Shown: piece after piece, positions 6,257-13,250 of the stretch
Numbering within the stretch: the first letter of the stretch is position 1
Layout of the letters: every line of letters begins with the position of its first letter
DNA from: a virus
Virus record (IMG/VR): IMGVR_UViG_3300035701_000355
Location: 1 to 20,630 of that record
DNA: 20,630 nt
Reading direction: 5' to 3' (one strand)
Translations under genes and position numbers: made by a program
Notes under the pieces: generated by a model
Database searches by the model: none
Seen by the model: only the letters and a program-made list of their open reading frames with translations
Told to the model about the DNA's origin: nothing

Positions 6257-9200
6257 TCAACGGTACTGTCCCCACACGGGCCAAATCTTGTCAATAGCGC
6301 GCTGGATTTGACCGATCGTAGCAGCTTCTGAATGAAAGCGACTCTTTAGTCTCTGCCCTCTCGCCGCGTCCCAGAAATCCGTCCACATATCTATAGCGGC
6401 TGTTCTCCTCCTGGTGGCCTCCATTATTCCCGCTATAGTCTTGATTTGCTCCGGCGTGGGTTTGGACATAATTTCGAACCATGCGCGCGGGTCCTCGGGG
6501 TCAATTCCAAAGGTTCCGCTGCGTACCGCGCCGGTTCTGTGCATGAAATCGTTCACTGTCAGGCCATCTGCTATATTAGGTCTAATTCCCATTCCAGCAG
6601 CCGCCACCATCTGGTGCTCCTGGTCGGTTCCTATCACTTTACCCGATTTGTCTATAAAACTAGTCGCGGAGGCATCTATTTCTGCAAAGTTCTGGGGTTT
6701 CCCGAATTTACGGATGACGCGTTCCTCCTCCAGAGTAACTTCGTATTTTGGTCTGAACTTTCCTCCACCTGCCAGTTGGGACAAAGGCGCAACTTCTTGT
6801 GAAGTCTTCTCAGGCCAAATCTTGTCAATAGCACGCTGAAGTTCCCCGATGGAGGCTGATCCAGAATTAAAGCTATCTAAAAGCTTAGGAAATTTGATCG
6901 ATTGATCATATCTCCATAAATCGATGGATACTCGCCCGCCATGTTCCTTAGCAGCCTTTGCAATAGCTTTGATTTGACCTGGATAAGGTCTGGAGAATGC
7001 TTCAAAAGCGGAGCTACCAACTGTTCGAATAGTTCTTGTATCTTTTAGAAAATGCTGAAAGGACTCATAGGAACCCTCTGTGGCTTCATAAAGTTCATCA
7101 TGAGTCAATTCTCCAGGTAACTTACTCCCTAGATAGCCAACTACTTTGCCATCTTCTCTCATAAAACCCAATGAATCTGAGGAGATTTTTTCAATATCAA
7201 TAGGTTTTCCGTACTTTTCTAAATTCTTGAGAATCTTAGTCGGTCTGAACTTTCCTCCGCCCGCTATCTTGCTCCCCGGCGCATTCAACTCACTCAGCGG
7301 CACTGTCCCCACATAGGTCTTCGGCTCTCCATCTGCTGTCCTTATTATATTGCCCTTCTTGCTTACCACACGGCGCGGCTCCCCAACCTCGTCCAGGAAG
7401 GTGTCGCCTACTTTCAAATCGGTGGCCTTGGCGCGGGTGAGGGTGGAGAGAGGTGTGGTCCCGGTGGGAATCTCCCCAACAGGTGCGGCGGCTTCGGGGG
7501 CAACCTTAGACCTACCAAGATACCTTTCAAATAGTTTCCCAAGTTCCGGGTTTACTGACTTTGGGTCTATGAGGTAGTTCCCATAATCCATCGCAATTTC
7601 CTCGCGGTGGAAATGGTTTTTCGTTATCCACTCAGGCTTGTACCCCTTTGCCTTCCATTCAGCACCCTTTAATTTCACATATTCATCAAGTAATACACTG
7701 CGACTGCCCTCGGGAAGTGTTTCAATTACCACGTGGGCTATTTCATGGTTGACTACGTTGGGATTCTCCATGTCTTTCGGACTATTGAAGACCAGCCGCT
7801 TCCCCCGCCAATCAACCTCTGCTTCGTAAGTATGACCCTCCTTTGTCCTTGTCTTATCAACTTCTATCCTCCACCCCGATGGTAACAAATCCGTCCTGGT
7901 GGGTCGGTTAGCCCCTTTCGGCGCGACGGCTTCGGAGGTGACGGGGGGTGCCGCAGGTTCCCCGCCTAGGTATTGCCGCATCATGCGTCCCGTCGTTGAT
8001 TCTCTCACAACTGTCCGTCCAGGTTCGATCACTTGAGCTGGTTGCTCAATAGCTGCTCCAGAAGGTTGTGGAGTACTTGGATAACCGCCTGGACCTCCAG
8101 CTCCTAGTGGAATGATTCCTCCAGTAGGAGCACTACCAGCACCTGGGGCAAGTGGTGAAGGGGGCATAATCAAAGGCCCGGGAGGCAGCATAGGAAAAGG
8201 TCCAGGAGGTTTTGGAAGAGGTGCCCTCTCTGGTCCTTGAGCAAACTTATCCATAGCCTTCCGTAACAAAGCGTTTGGAACCGCAGCCCGTTCACCATAT
8301 GTCCGTAGAGCTTCAACAGCAGGCACGGCCATCACGGCAGGCAACACACGAGGTTCCATTGCTACAGCACCCGCAATGGCTGGAACCAAGAGAGGATGAT
8401 AAGTAAAACCCCGAGTGAATACTCCAAGGTATTTGGGTTTCTCTGCTTCCATCCGCTCAGCTCTTGGAATGTTCCTGTTCAACACCTCATGTAAATCAGT
8501 CATTGCAGCATAATCAAGTCGTGCTTCTCGGATGCCTGGTTCACCCAAGCGATCCAAAGTGCCATACAGTTCTCTACGGACAGAACGAGTGACTTCATCA
8601 AGTACAGCCTTACCCATCGAGGCACGTTCAGCCGCTGCCTTTGATTCTGGAGTCATTTTCTGTAAAGCTCTAGATGCAGCATTAAGTTTGGCTAGCAACT
8701 CTCGGCCATCAGGCAATGGAATTCGCTGTCCAGCATATCTAACCATCTCTTCGTCAATTACTTTTGAATTCTCTGGGAACAAAGCATCAAGGACAGGATT
8801 TTTGAGTCTTCCAATAGCTGAAGCGAGATTGTTACCTAGGAGAGTCGCACCTGGGTGACGGTTGACAGCTAAACCGATAGTATCATTCTCCCACTGATCC
8901 ATATAATCCCGTAGACCATCAGCTGCCTCGCGGACAGTAGTAGGTTTCTGTTGCGCAGCGAATTCCCTCATGTGGCCGCGTTCTGATAACCGTTCTATCT
9001 GTTTAGGGAAGTTGGGTTTAGTTCCACGTAGAGCTCTAATAGTGTATTGATAGCCTTTTTGTGCAGCTTGAACAGGAGTATCTGTGATTATTCTCCCTAC
9101 TATTCTTCCTCCTGCTTTTAATGTCTTTGCTGTTGGCTTCAAAGTTCCCTTCACGCCAGCTATTCCCATCGCCGCCAGCGACGCTCCGCCCAGACGACGT

Positions 9201-9769
9201 TCCAAGATATCGGCAGGGGTCTCTCCCGGCTTCGGAGGAGCCGTCACCTCCTCCACGCCCTTGCCCAGGAACCAAGCTGAGGGGACGAACCCAGCGAGCG
9301 CTTGTATTGCCTTGGGCGCTCCAATGGCGGGCAGGCCTAGGCCTCCCCCGACCAGTCCCACCATCGCCGGGGAGGTGAACCCGGCTACGGTATCACGCAG
9401 CCCCCGTAGATTCTTCGCCAATTGGTCATACTTCCGCATGGCCTCAAGATTACCCGCCCGCTGCGCCACTTCCGTCATCTTCTCCCAGTGGGTGATCTCC
9501 TCATTCACGTTCTTAGCTTGGAAAGCCTCAGCCTGTGTGCGTGCCCCCAAACTGGGCACAATCTTGCCCAGAGTTTCAGGTGAGATCAGTGGTCGCATGA
9601 GGAATCCTGGCCTCTCAGAACTGATTGGTCTGATATTGGTGAATTCATCCTCGACCTTAGCCTGGGCCTCAGCAATAGATGGGCGAAGGCGCTCGGCACC
9701 ACCCGTCCATAGCGTCGGGATTGGTCTTATGTTCGTAAATTCTTGCGTGCCTGCATTTCCATTTGGCAT
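6257..9769 (-). CDS. Giant internal/ejection protein with zincin metallopeptidase motif and duplicated C-terminal module
   Basis: The 1170-residue protein sits in the gp16 position, last of three ejection genes, overlapping the upstream stop by one base (TAATG). A Gly/Ala-rich hydrophobic stretch (~133-170) could insert in a membrane; ~250-510 is helical; ~511-575 is Pro/Gly-rich. NHEIAHVVIE at 674-683 carries HExxH (675-679), with EE 723-724 and D728 downstream as possible third ligands, the pattern of a zincin-type zinc peptidase. Residues ~780-825 (DLKVGDTFLDEVGEPRRVV) look like a small beta domain. Residues 835-986 and 999-1164 are divergent copies of one module (start GGGKFRP, end QRAIDKIWP). 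There is no cysteine. The likely role is entry into the host with DNA and cleavage of an envelope or cytoplasmic target; the substrate is unknown. No convincing lysozyme or transglycosylase motif was seen. Confidence 0.75.
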   Translation of the reverse strand: MPNGNAGTQEFTNIRPIPTLWTGGAERLRPSIAEAQAKVEDEFTNIRPISSERPGFLMRPLISPETLGKIVPSLGARTQAEAFQAKNVNEEITHWEKMTEVAQRAGNLEAMRKYDQLAKNLRGLRDTVAGFTSPAMVGLVGGGLGLPAIGAPKAIQALAGFVPSAWFLGKGVEEVTAPPKPGETPADILERRLGGASLAAMGIAGVKGTLKPTAKTLKAGGRIVGRIITDTPVQAAQKGYQYTIRALRGTKPNFPKQIERLSERGHMREFAAQQKPTTVREAADGLRDYMDQWENDTIGLAVNRHPGATLLGNNLASAIGRLKNPVLDALFPENSKVIDEEMVRYAGQRIPLPDGRELLAKLNAASRALQKMTPESKAAAERASMGKAVLDEVTRSVRRELYGTLDRLGEPGIREARLDYAAMTDLHEVLNRNIPRAERMEAEKPKYLGVFTRGFTYHPLLVPAIAGAVAMEPRVLPAVMAVPAVEALRTYGERAAVPNALLRKAMDKFAQGPERAPLPKPPGPFPMLPPGPLIMPPSPLAPGAGSAPTGGIIPLGAGGPGGYPSTPQPSGAAIEQPAQVIEPGRTVVRESTTGRMMRQYLGGEPAAPPVTSEAVAPKGANRPTRTDLLPSGWRIEVDKTRTKEGHTYEAEVDWRGKRLVFNSPKDMENPNVVNHEIAHVVIETLPEGSRSVLLDEYVKLKGAEWKAKGYKPEWITKNHFHREEIAMDYGNYLIDPKSVNPELGKLFERYLGRSKVAPEAAAPVGEIPTGTTPLSTLTRAKATDLKVGDTFLDEVGEPRRVVSKKGNIIRTADGEPKTYVGTVPLSELNAPGSKIAGGGKFRPTKILKNLEKYGKPIDIEKISSDSLGFMREDGKVVGYLGSKLPGELTHDELYEATEGSYESFQHFLKDTRTIRTVGSSAFEAFSRPYPGQIKAIAKAAKEHGGRVSIDLWRYDQSIKFPKLLDSFNSGSASIGELQRAIDKIWPEKTSQEVAPLSQLAGGGKFRPKYEVTLEEERVIRKFGKPQNFAEIDASATSFIDKSGKVIGTDQEHQMVAAAGMGIRPNIADGLTVNDFMHRTGAVRSGTFGIDPEDPRAWFEIMSKPTPEQIKTIAGIMEATRRRTAAIDMWTDFWDAARGQRLKSRFHSEAATIGQIQRAIDKIWPVWGQYR
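6278..6775 (-). repeat. C-terminal module, copy B (residues 999-1164 of the giant internal protein)
   Basis: This copy begins LAGGGKFRPKYE and ends QRAIDKIWP. It shares with copy A the internal order KFGKP/KYGKP, a GKV-(I/V)-G step, P-x-(Q/E)-QIKxIA, DxW and the final helix. A 20-base stretch at 6279-6298 is identical to 6813-6832 in copy A. Confidence 0.75.
6812..7267 (-). repeat. C-terminal module, copy A (residues 835-986 of the giant internal protein)
   Basis: This copy begins IAGGGKFRPTKI and ends QRAIDKIWP. It is about 150 residues long and somewhat shorter than copy B. Its DNA is visibly richer in A and T than most of the operon. Confidence 0.75.
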
Positions 9770-11553
9770 TATTCTACTGCCCCTAGATCCTTGCCCTGAG
9801 CGTCAAGGTAGTGATCCCTTCCATCTTTCCTCGACGTACCAATGCTTACTGCTCCCGGGGGTGGGGCCTTCCCCACTTTACCCTCCGCCCCGCCCGCAGG
9901 CGCACCAGGGGCGGAGGTGGGGGAGGTCGCCGCCGGAGTTGGGGGAGGCGCACCCGGAGGCGGGGCTGCACCCACGCCCGGGACTGGAGTCACCACCTCC
10001 TCCTTCTCTAGCAGCGCGGAGCCCGCCCCGCCCAACCCTTTCAATATCTCGATAGACTTGGGACTAAGAAGCTTGAAATCGCGCGCTTTTTTCATCCCGG
10101 TTACCCACTGATAGTCCAGAGCATCCATGCGGGAACCGAGCAGGCGTACGATCTCCTCGTATGTCGCCTGCAGCTTCTCCGGCGAGTCAGACGAGTTGAG
10201 TTGTTCCTTCCACGTCGTGATTTCCTGATCGGTGCCTGCGGTGCCCTTAAAAACAGTAGCCGCCTCCCCCGCCACGGCGTTAGCATCAACTAGGAATCGG
10301 CGGACCCGGGGATCGCCTCGCCAATCGCTCAAAGTATAATTGGCAATTTTATTCCAAAACTGCACGCTGCGGTTCTGCAAGGCCTCCGATGAGTCCTTGA
10401 AGTTTTTGAGATGGCCGATGGCCGTATTAAGTGAACGGATATTCCCAGCTGCTTTGCCTTTCGTGAATTCCGTGCGGACGGCGGTGCGGATCTGGAATTG
10501 AGTGGCGTCAAAATTAGGATCATACATGCCCGCCAATTGAAGCAATTTCTGCCAATAAGGGCTGCGGAGAGCGAAACTGCCGGGGAATGCCAACCGGCCC
10601 TCAACTAGAGCCTTAACTATATTGGCGAGGCCCGGGGACAGCTTGCTAAGGATCTCCTCATTGGTTGCAAATGTTGGTGCCCCTGCCACTCCCGGCACTG
10701 CCGCCTGTGGGATTCCTCCCATACCGCCAAATCCCGCCATCTCACCCCGCGATCTAGCCTCCGCTTCCGCCCCAGCAGTCCTGGCTCGAAATTGAGTCAG
10801 AGCACCGAGGGCCGCCTTCGCTGGTCCATAGTTCTTGCCAGCTAGCACCGCTAGGTTCGCCTCCGTCGCTTTCTGCATCTGTCGCTCCTCCGGAGTCAGA
10901 GCGGCCTCCTCTGTCGCGATCTTTCCTGTTGCTATAATGCTCGGGGTCTCGAGGGCGAGGCGGTCAGCGCCGGTCTGCGCCGTCAATTCCCTCGCCGCCA
11001 TCCCACGTCGGGCGATCTCCTCATCCATTAGAGACTTGCTCATGCCAATCGTCGAATCGAATAGCGGCAGGACTTCATCGCCGGGGTATTGCGCGGGGAG
11101 CCGAGAGATATCCACTTCGTTCTGCTGGAGCATCGCCAGCTGTTGGGCGTATACCTGAGGCCGCATCTGTGGCGCGGCGTCTTTCACAGATTTGAGGGCA
11201 CGGGCGACGAGATCCATGCTGGTCTGTACATTCTTGAACTTTACCTCGTCTAGAAGTTGGAGGTTCTTCCGACTCTCCGTGAGGCTGCTCTGCAACGTGA
11301 TCAGAGTCTGGGGGTCCGCCCCCTTCTGCGCCGCCAGCTGCAGCATCTTTCCCACGTCGCCCCCGGATTCCACAGCGGCGGACTGGAGGATCTTCTGGCT
11401 CGCCAGTGCCATCCTCTCCCGCTCCATTTGCATCTGCCGTATCTGGCCTTCCTGCGTCAGGCTGCTCAACTGCAGCATCCGCCCATACTGCTCGAGCGGG
11501 TTCTCAAGCGGCGCGGGAGGCCGAATGCCCAAAGCTGGAAGTGGAATACCCAT
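9769..11553 (-). CDS. Ejection (internal virion) protein, gp20 position
   Basis: The 594-residue protein is cysteine-free, with a long helical N-terminal region (coiled-coil-like around 25-60, QIRQMQMERERMALASQK), an Ala/Gly-rich middle, and a conserved block at ~305-385 (LSPGLANIVKALVEGRLAFPG, SPYWQKLL, RSLNTAIGHL) that I recognise from internal virion proteins of podoviruses and related prophages. The C-terminal ~75 residues are an Ala/Pro-rich linker followed by a short tail (GRDHYLDAQGKDLG). It lies second of three ejection genes, after the gp7-like gene, matching the P22 order gp7-gp20-gp16. ATG 11553 has AGGAG six bases upstream. It is probably packaged in the head and expelled to help form the trans-envelope DNA channel. 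Confidence 0.7.
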   Translation of the reverse strand: MGIPLPALGIRPPAPLENPLEQYGRMLQLSSLTQEGQIRQMQMERERMALASQKILQSAAVESGGDVGKMLQLAAQKGADPQTLITLQSSLTESRKNLQLLDEVKFKNVQTSMDLVARALKSVKDAAPQMRPQVYAQQLAMLQQNEVDISRLPAQYPGDEVLPLFDSTIGMSKSLMDEEIARRGMAARELTAQTGADRLALETPSIIATGKIATEEAALTPEERQMQKATEANLAVLAGKNYGPAKAALGALTQFRARTAGAEAEARSRGEMAGFGGMGGIPQAAVPGVAGAPTFATNEEILSKLSPGLANIVKALVEGRLAFPGSFALRSPYWQKLLQLAGMYDPNFDATQFQIRTAVRTEFTKGKAAGNIRSLNTAIGHLKNFKDSSEALQNRSVQFWNKIANYTLSDWRGDPRVRRFLVDANAVAGEAATVFKGTAGTDQEITTWKEQLNSSDSPEKLQATYEEIVRLLGSRMDALDYQWVTGMKKARDFKLLSPKSIEILKGLGGAGSALLEKEEVVTPVPGVGAAPPPGAPPPTPAATSPTSAPGAPAGGAEGKVGKAPPPGAVSIGTSRKDGRDHYLDAQGKDLGAVE

Positions 11554-11563
11554 ACGTCACTCC

Positions 11564-12403
11564 TTATACGTAGCCGCCAGTGGGTTGAGGTTGTTTGCCG
11601 AGTAGCGAGCTCAACAGCAACAGATTGCTGATGTTCGACCCGATGCCGCTCACCGCCCCGCCCCAAGCATTCGCCCCGCCGACGTAACCGCTGGCCCGAG
11701 CCGCCGCCGCATTCTGCAGAGCCTGGGATTGTTGCGCCGCGCTTCCCATCAGGATGTTGGAGACGCTTCCCGCCGTCTGTGCCCCAGTCTGCCCGAGTTG
11801 CGCGGCGGTGGTCTGTCCCATCCCGGCCATGCCCGCGTAGCGGTTGTACTGATTGGCCTGGCCTTGCTGGAAGATGTTGTAGGCCTGTTGATACTCGGTC
11901 AGCGCCCGGTTGTAAACGTTCTGATACTCGCCCGAGGCATATTCCTGCCCGTAGCGCGTGAGCGCTTTGCCCGTCCCGCCGGTGAGCAATCCGCCCCGCG
12001 CCGCCGCTGAACGCTCGATCGCCTGCTGGCCCTGCGCTAGGCGGAATTGGAAGCCCGGCTCGGCCTCCATCTGAGCGGTGGTAGGCGCAGCGAATTCCTT
12101 GCCCCAAGGCTGGGTCAGTTCTCCACCCGGCCCCATCAGGCTGGCGAGGGTGGTGACGGCTCCCTGGCCCGCCTTCAAGAAGGGAGCCTGTTGCCGCTGA
12201 TATGTTTCCCATTGCTGCTTCTGGAAGGCTAGGGCCTCACGAGCGGATCGCGCCTCAAGTTCAGCCGCAGTCTCCGCTGCCCTCGCTTGGGTCTCTCCGG
12301 CTTTTCCAGCAGCCCTCGACCCAATAGCTGCAGCAGCGATGCTACTACCACCTGCAATCGCGCCACCAATAATCATCCCTGTTACTAGGCTAGAGATAAT
12401 CAT
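11564..12403 (-). CDS. DNA transfer/ejection protein, P22 gp7-like
   Basis: The 279-residue protein begins with a glycine-zipper-like hydrophobic segment (residues 1-30, GMIIGGAIAGGSSIAAAAIG) that could insert into membrane, then a helical region rich in Ala, Glu and Arg. The core motif EPGFQFRLAQGQQAIERSAA, followed by GGLLTGGTGKALTRYGQEYA and repeated Tyr/Gln/Asn helices (YNRALTEYQQAYN, NQYNRYAGMAGMGQ), is characteristic of phage DNA transfer proteins annotated like P22 gp7. The C-terminus ends in another hydrophobic stretch (ISNLLLLSSLLG). It has no cysteine. The start overlaps the acetyltransferase stop by four bases and has AGGAG six bases upstream. It is expected in the capsid and ejected early at infection. 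Confidence 0.85.
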   Translation of the reverse strand: MIISSLVTGMIIGGAIAGGSSIAAAAIGSRAAGKAGETQARAAETAAELEARSAREALAFQKQQWETYQRQQAPFLKAGQGAVTTLASLMGPGGELTQPWGKEFAAPTTAQMEAEPGFQFRLAQGQQAIERSAAARGGLLTGGTGKALTRYGQEYASGEYQNVYNRALTEYQQAYNIFQQGQANQYNRYAGMAGMGQTTAAQLGQTGAQTAGSVSNILMGSAAQQSQALQNAAAARASGYVGGANAWGGAVSGIGSNISNLLLLSSLLGKQPQPTGGYV

Positions 12404-12840
12404 GCCAGTCTCCTCTGGTAGCCCACTTCTACTTGATGATACCCACGCCGCTTGTACAATTGCTCGATCTCTGCCGTCGGAGCAACCATTTGCATCCTTT
12501 TAGCTCCAAGATCACGTGCCATCGCTTCGGCAGCCGCCAGCAACTTGAGACCTGCTCCACCTTTTCGCGCTTCAGGCTCTACGTACCACAGAAGTTCCCC
12601 CGCCGTCATCTCCCCTGAGAAGAAGTGGGGGAAAACGAGGAATGCAAACACTCCGATCAACTTGCCCTGGTATTCCGAGACGAGAATTCTTCCACCGGGA
12701 TTTTTAAGAAGTTGCACAAAGAAGCCAGTTGCCTGCTCGGGATTGTCCGTTACCTCATCACGGTATGGCCCCTCAGCCAAGAACCGCCGTCCCATCTCTA
12801 CCACTCTCGGAAGGTCTGCGGGAGTAGCTTGCCGAATCAT
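12400..12840 (-). CDS. GNAT-family N-acetyltransferase
   Basis: The 146-residue protein begins MIRQATPADLPRVVEMGRRF, the usual GNAT N-terminal strand and helix. It continues with ILVSEYQGKLIGVFAFLVF, then motif A at ~84-100 (LLWYVEPEARKGGAGLKLL, an R-x-x-G-x-G-like acetyl-CoA loop) and a C-terminal LYKRRGYHQVEVGYQRRL. It should transfer an acetyl group from acetyl-CoA to an amine; the substrate is unknown. ATG 12840 is chosen because AGGGAG lies seven bases before it and it makes an ATGA overlap with the upstream stop; a GTG at 12858 would add six residues. It sits between a membrane-protein gene and the gp7-like gene, so modification of a virion or host protein is plausible. Confidence 0.88.
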   Translation of the reverse strand: MIRQATPADLPRVVEMGRRFLAEGPYRDEVTDNPEQATGFFVQLLKNPGGRILVSEYQGKLIGVFAFLVFPHFFSGEMTAGELLWYVEPEARKGGAGLKLLAAAEAMARDLGAKRMQMVAPTAEIEQLYKRRGYHQVEVGYQRRLA

Positions 12841-13250
12841 CGCGGCACTCCCTGCCACGCACGATGCTCACGTAGTCGAAGATTGTGCTGAATACACCAG
12901 GCATTCACGGCAATAGATGCGACAAACACCGCCTTCCACAATCGCCGATGCCCTTGCTTCTTTAGACGCCAGGCAAGTAAATTCAAGCCCACCTCAGCCC
13001 CCAACCCCATAGCATACATCCTTGCTCGGCTGGGATAAGGCCCCAAAAGAGAATTCATTTCCCTGATACCCGGCATGGTTTGTTGCTTATATTTGGTGAC
13101 TTCAATGTCCGCAATCACCATCCCTGCCGCCGTCGCGCTCAGCAACCAAAAATCCCGATTGCTGTGCCGCAAAGATTCCTGGCCGCTCAGCGGTATTGCC
13201 GACATCAGAGTCACAAGGAACATCAGCACAAGTACCATGCCAGTAACCAT
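12837..13250 (-). CDS. Multi-pass membrane protein of unknown function
   Basis: The 137-residue protein starts at ATG 13250, overlapping the upstream gene by 28 bases; ATG 13238 or ATG 13223 (ATGA overlap) are alternatives. A much longer frame from 13466 is open, but it runs through the coding frame of the 107-residue gene and has glycine-rich, non-natural composition. Residues 1-22 form a hydrophobic leader (MVLVLMFLVTLMSAIPLSG), then come ~34-50 (WLLSATAAGMVIADI), ~77-95 and ~104-122 as further membrane segments. The motif EMNSLLGPYPSRARMY between them recalls small bacterial membrane proteins I associate with Acidobacteriota. The function is unknown; a host-derived cargo gene or an envelope-acting phage protein are both possible. 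Confidence 0.6.
   Translation of the reverse strand: MVTGMVLVLMFLVTLMSAIPLSGQESLRHSNRDFWLLSATAAGMVIADIEVTKYKQQTMPGIREMNSLLGPYPSRARMYAMGLGAEVGLNLLAWRLKKQGHRRLWKAVFVASIAVNAWCIQHNLRLREHRAWQGVPR

Follow-up and report, generated by a model that had tools for sequence, protein, structure and literature searches.

Does the single HExxH motif in the large third ejection protein of a P22-type soil phage mark a working metallopeptidase, and if so, what would such an enzyme do in a protein that travels with the DNA? Our work here addresses this question for a virus record of 20,630 bases, the whole of which we call the window, by combining gene order, sequence homologues and structure prediction. Taken together, the homologues and the predicted structure make it very probable that the motif belongs to a genuine metallopeptidase domain. 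We further propose that the third ejection protein is probably modular, that is, polyvalent, with an ejection core, a Pro-rich linker, a functional zincin peptidase (residues 618-752) and a C-terminal cargo (residues 757-1170), the self-processing that we assign to the peptidase being the least certain part of this reading.

The minus-strand genes of the window run, in the direction of transcription, from a scaffold gene (phrog_8865) through a P22-type coat gene (Pfam P22_CoatProtein, E 3.5e-36; also phrog_283), a head-tail adaptor-like gene and the gene for head closure protein Hc3 (phrog_578, E 4e-112) to a GNAT gene, a phrog_598 ejection gene, a further ejection-like gene and the zincin gene, after which come a tail-like gene and a lysin gene of the glycosyl hydrolase 108 type. 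The ejection block reads as follows.

11564-12403, minus strand: first ejection protein (gp7 position), 279 aa, matching phrog_598 'DNA ejection' at E 2.6e-34
9769-11553, minus strand: second ejection protein (gp20 position), 594 aa, assigned by position and by same-place homologues in related loci
6257-9769, minus strand: third ejection-protein gene (gp16 position), 1170 aa, ATG start, carrier of the zincin, assigned by its position after the first and second ejection genes

Since the zincin gene is the third in the ejection block of a P22-type gene order, preceded by coat, Hc3 and the two other ejection genes, it takes the place of P22 gp16, and the gp16 position given in a first-pass annotation of this DNA is borne out by synteny. 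The same annotation spoke of a giant ejection protein; the protein is large, but at 1170 aa the term overstates its size, as same-position relatives are mostly 337-664 aa long and those of Vibrio and Thalassomonas phages reach 2600-3100 aa or more. The shorter relatives come from 72 related loci collected by coat-protein scans, in which the third ejection gene is present wherever the locus extends far enough, the shorter proteins lacking HExxH. No copy of the window protein was found in 50 whole related phage records. A coat-protein search of 396 Acidobacteriota genomes returned one match, at 43%, which is insufficient to name a host. The GNAT acetyltransferase gene (12400-12858, minus strand) that directly precedes the ejection block recurs in related loci (15 matches), and Xanthomonas phage PBR31 has an annotated acetyltransferase at a similar place.

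Homologues of the domain were found by its motif. IMG/VR was scanned for the DNA pattern of HE(I/L/V/M/F)AHVx(I/L/V/M/F)E, which also returned chance matches, and yielded two giant proteins, in loci L140 and L149, that align with the window protein solely over the zincin (45.8% identity over 166 aa, E 4e-42, and 52.5% over 122 aa, E 3e-38, respectively). An alignment-based scan of bacterial genomes added a third, a 2189-aa protein in an Acidobacteria MAG, whose gene adjoins a recombinase and a DNA primase/polymerase and therefore probably lies in an integrated element. The three homologues, from two other phages and this apparent integrated element, are 1594, 2604 and 2189 aa long and 49-53% identical to the window domain; they share with it a domain of ~130 aa only, residues 573-774 at most being alignable, and outside the zincin the window and the homologue-bearing elements are connected by a single weak similarity (E 1.5e-4). 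As the zincin is all that these otherwise different proteins have in common, the domain appears to move as a unit. The features of the domain, with conservation taken from the four-row alignment, are these.

7514-7918, minus strand: zincin-like metallopeptidase domain, residues ~618-752, from sequence homologues, AF2 model and zincin structural neighbours
7832-7834, minus strand: H646 of the invariant TRTKEGHxxEAEVDW signature
7733-7747, minus strand: HEIAH, with H675 and H679 as putative zinc ligands and E676 as putative general base, in model helix 60-73, invariant in 4/4
7607-7609, minus strand: H721, two residues before the Glu ligand, invariant in 4/4
7601-7603, minus strand: E723 of FHxExIAxD, putative third zinc ligand, in model helix 110-124, invariant in 4/4

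HEIAH, at residues 675-679, is the only HExxH of the 1170-aa ORF (9769..6257, minus strand), just as the first-pass annotation had it, and it is kept in every homologue of the domain that we could detect (3/3), together with the invariant downstream Glu. The alignment has 46 invariant columns, H675, E676, H679, H721, E723 and D728 among them, and its invariant blocks read GW, TRTKEGHxxEAEVDW, NHE(I/L)AHVxIE, LP and KNxFHxExIAxD. The EE pair and Asp noted earlier about 45 residues downstream are present, with E723/E724 (7603-7598) 44/45 residues past the second His and D728 at 7588-7586, but they fall outside the interval 7693-7797 first assigned to the motif, which takes in the HExxH and not the putative third ligand E723; E723 and D728 are conserved, and E724 is not.

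Other searches added no relatives of the domain. A second viral scan, with TRTKEGHxxE, returned the same two viral proteins and no others, and an earlier gapped HExxH pattern gave mostly unrelated or out-of-frame matches. Whole-protein and piecewise sequence searches of Pfam, NCBIfam, PHROGs and the PDB produced sub-threshold matches only (for example eCIS_core, E 0.17), tblastn against phage and plasmid records yielded nothing relevant, related-locus searches came back empty both for the full protein and for a poor two-row alignment, and 396 + 193 Acidobacteriota genomes held no copy of the domain beyond the one already known. A profile built from the four true members fails to pick up the proteins in L107 and L081, which look similar by eye, and we do not claim them as relatives. 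A domain that Pfam, PHROGs and NCBIfam do not detect is missed when such phages are annotated.

The homologue P0018 (L163:8516-16330) carries ddrB-ParB (E 6e-38) and RadC (E 4e-14) besides the zincin, and portal, terminase and Hc3-like genes are present in the phage that encodes it. The first-pass analogy with polyvalent proteins has thus become direct homology to a protein with polyvalent hallmarks: P0018 combines an MPTase with further disparate domains, the pattern by which polyvalent proteins are recognised, and the corresponding partners in the window protein are the ejection core and a duplicated C-terminal domain. PMC5512222 lists ddrB-ParB as phage-only and RadC as conjugative-element-only, and P0018 joins the two in one phage protein. 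The 2189-aa MAG protein (L165:7424-13993) contains another HExxH (HEIGHFIDWKYG), well separated from the first, and the genes beside it are those for the recombinase and the primase/polymerase, not recognised structural ones.

Our AF2 model, built on the four-row alignment, has a mean pLDDT of 86.1 and a pTM of 0.80, with 114/147 residues at 90 or above. In model numbering, strands at 24-27, 40-43 and 48-51 are followed by the HExxH helix (60-73), a helix at 77-97, the Glu helix (110-124) and a last helix (131-141). This order of three strands, HExxH helix, helix and Glu helix agrees with the zincin core described in PMC5512222, and the features that define the superfamily, an HExxH within a helix, a Glu in a later helix and a three-stranded sheet ahead of the HExxH helix, are all seen in the model. 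A VIA-align 2 search with the model returned zincins in nearly all rows at Z of ~6-8. Values of this size are modest and, taken alone, could reflect no more than a common arrangement; they carry weight here through the agreement of the neighbours among themselves and with the motif. The N-terminal domains of Certhrax and lethal factor lead (Z 7.9-8.0 over 131-133 residues), followed by the catalytic domain of lethal factor (6.5-6.8), IrrE/PprI (6.4-6.5) and PPEP (6.0-6.3); Foldseek on the same model listed the same families with no significant E-value. A single-sequence AF2 model (pLDDT 61), too weak for Foldseek, already ranked lethal factor first. The zincin fold suggested by the motif reappears in the predicted topology and in its structural neighbours. 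Neither of the outcomes that would have spoken against the first-pass reading, a model lacking a zincin fold or an HExxH lost from the homologues, was obtained. We dropped an assignment to family M34, whose catalytic Tyr precedes the Glu ligand by seven residues, a placing with which the Y178 variants named in PDB titles agree: T716 stands there in the window protein and V in its relatives, and with this Tyr missing the domain is zincin-like, not M34. H721 is a possible stand-in for it.

The rest of the protein can be divided into the following parts.

8240-9769, minus strand: ejection-protein core, residues 1-510, probable counterpart of the relatives' shorter third ejection proteins, from weak similarity to an L008 protein
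9719-9742, minus strand: EFTNIRPI copy 1, residues 10-17, a score reached by 0/500 shuffles
9623-9646, minus strand: EFTNIRPI copy 2, residues 42-49, with 10 identical residues around the copies
7910-8239, minus strand: Pro/Gly/Ala-rich linker by composition, residues 511-620, with 15 Pro in residues 501-550
7265-7501, minus strand: residues 757-835, a small segment that follows the zincin and matches no family
6770-7261, minus strand: C-terminal repeat 1, residues 837-1000, weak phrog_20527 match (E 1e-3)
6260-6769, minus strand: C-terminal repeat 2, residues 1001-1170, from the repeat-to-repeat comparison

The core was placed by residues 117-237, whose sole match, a weak one, is the protein at this position in L008 (E 2e-4 among 32 proteins, 0.042 against all ORFs). 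Because the relatives' third ejection proteins are short and lack HExxH, and only that of L008 resembles the N-terminal part, the zincin and the rest of the C-terminal half look like an addition to a short core; the domain is not needed for ejection itself, as close relatives manage with shorter proteins that lack it, a point that weighs against our overall reading. The last 334 residues (7261-6260, minus strand) are two copies of one domain, with a Smith-Waterman score of 169 between them (shuffles 29 +/- 5) and G+C of 0.415 and 0.520.

The duplicated N-terminal peptide extends beyond the window. In third ejection proteins of related environmental phages and in the three zincin giants, a short peptide occurs twice within about the first 50 residues, its sequence varying by phage (EFTNIRPI, GDIFDEVA, RRSPDEI, GWTPVPES, KFDLEKYR). 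We see it in the window protein (P0001), in P0017, P0018 and P0019, and in L002, L005, L008, L015, L021, L032, L033, L038, L039, L043, L050, L051, L060 and L062. The copies often differ in codons, as do 6/10 of the identical residues in P0001, and so seem to be maintained as protein sequence. In a shuffle test at p < 0.01, 18/20 third-ejection candidates, chosen by position, pass, against almost none of the coat, adaptor, gp7-position and other families of the same loci (for example 0/45, 0/53 and 0/28; Hc3 1/44); the 4/38 scaffold proteins that pass owe it to stretches of charged, low-complexity sequence or to a reading frame that is itself doubtful. The doublet marks third ejection proteins within the related environmental loci, the scope to which we limit it, having dropped the idea of a general P22-like trait when 103 annotated proteins of eight named phages showed no doublet at p < 0.01. 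Two ORFs at the third ejection position, L024:11304-12479 and L037:19296-20228, are without it, and that of L024 starts MADKNVQLPDGRVVAFPDSMADADIAEVI, another kind of N-terminus. We read the doublet as a possible packaging, capsid-targeting or ejection address.

How might such a protein work? Synteny and the doublet make it likely that the third ejection protein is packaged in the capsid, from which it would be ejected with the DNA. Its C-terminal half would reach the cytoplasm in the way proposed for T7 gp16-C, which PMC8954989 places in the host cytoplasm. That the zincin also occurs in very large proteins of otherwise unrelated phages makes its delivery into the cell probable, there to cut either itself or a host protein. 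We rank the first above the second: the peptidase would act mainly on its own polypeptide, cutting the linker after, or shortly before, ejection and separating the membrane-bound core from the C-terminal cargo of small domain and duplicated domain. This preference comes from the position of the zincin in all four proteins, between an N-terminal part and a C-terminal cargo and often beside Pro/Ala-rich linkers, and from the self-processing suggested in PMC5512222 for zincin MPTases, the commonest domain of polyvalent proteins. As the main role of the domain, self-processing nevertheless stays a tentative proposal, to which we give a little less than an even chance; a comparison of the linkers revealed no common cleavage motif, which counts against it, as does the packaging of N4 vRNAP, also with an HExxH domain, in unprocessed form (PMC5512222).

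The alternative that survives best is that the zincin acts in trans as an injected effector and cleaves a host defence factor, regulator or envelope protein after ejection. Strong conservation of the domain amid surroundings that all differ is what one would expect of an effector module constrained by its substrate, the closest folds take in proteases that are delivered or secreted as well as the regulatory IrrE/PprI type, and PMC5512222 names host proteins as possible targets; the mid-protein position in 4/4, however, fits a processing role at least as well, and we regard trans cleavage as possible without favouring it. Processing might instead belong to virion assembly, so that the packaged forms are already cut pieces. 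Phage P1 offers a precedent, its DdrB being cut to 76 kDa before packaging, which the authors of PMC5512222 ascribe to its MPTase domain; N4 vRNAP, packaged whole, and the linkers, with no common site apparent, speak against it and leave assembly processing unlikely. It is more improbable still that the fold is kept for structure or metal binding and does not cut peptides, like the dead N-terminal domain of lethal factor. That domain and its counterpart in Certhrax head the structural neighbours and are without HExxH, whereas H675, E676, H679 and E723, unneeded by a dead domain, are invariant in four proteins of ~50% identity. A chance HExxH in an unrelated ejection-protein segment, for which the empty family and PDB sequence searches might speak, is hardly credible given an expected number of 0.017 for this protein length and composition, the conserved homologues and the confident zincin model.

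Returning to self-processing, we can sketch a more daring version, which we consider doubtful as a whole: a timed self-cleaving separator, in which the N-terminal doublet would be the capsid address, the core would form the inner-membrane part of the ejection channel, and a zincin that becomes active only on entering the cytoplasm would cut the linker and free the cargo, the separator domain being passed between unrelated phages with very different cargos. Phage-delivered proteases have been little tested. This zincin is compact (~130 residues) and well predicted, and the P22-type ejection protein that carries it is otherwise ordinary, which makes it a manageable subject for finding out whether, when and where ejected polyvalent proteins are cut, a matter that the 2017 survey did not settle.

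Among known systems, the closest folds are those of M34 (anthrax lethal factor fold, PPEP-1) and M78 (IrrE/PprI), which resemble the window domain in structure (Z 6-8) and in a Glu ~40-45 residues past the HExxH; at only 8-20% identity this is a resemblance of fold that implies no toxin function. The virion RNA polymerase of N4 likewise has an HExxH domain, C1, in an ejected giant protein (PMC12633501, PMC5512222), but it belongs to the N4-type RNA polymerase protein and has no sequence match to the window domain. Nearer in gene order are Thalassomonas phage BA3 and Vibrio phages VvAW1 and 1.183.O, P22-like isolates whose third-position ejection proteins also carry an HExxH (HEMAH). The two scanned for polyvalent domains have LPD38 (BA3) and SNF2 plus methylase (VvAW1), so that third ejection proteins of this kind were already known; they differ from ours in size (2600-3100 aa and more), in their HEMAHYLD-type motif and in having no sequence match to the window domain. 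P22 gp16 itself, the counterpart by P22-type coat and ejection gene order, has 609 aa (PMC8954989), whereas the window protein adds ~660 residues after a core of ~510. The common phage MPTase clade is described as having an Asp three residues past the HExxH, where the window domain has I682, then E683, and is thereby set apart. It differs from the MPTase domains that Iyer et al. 2017 (PMC5512222) describe in polyvalent proteins, and sort into 12 clades, in escaping detection by Pfam, NCBIfam and PHROG models and in its own TRTKEGHxxEAEVDW and FHxExIAxD signatures. It nonetheless shares with them the HExxH helix, the Glu helix and the three-stranded sheet, a place in a large modular phage protein, the company of ddrB-ParB and RadC in a homologue, and a presumed route of packaging and injection.
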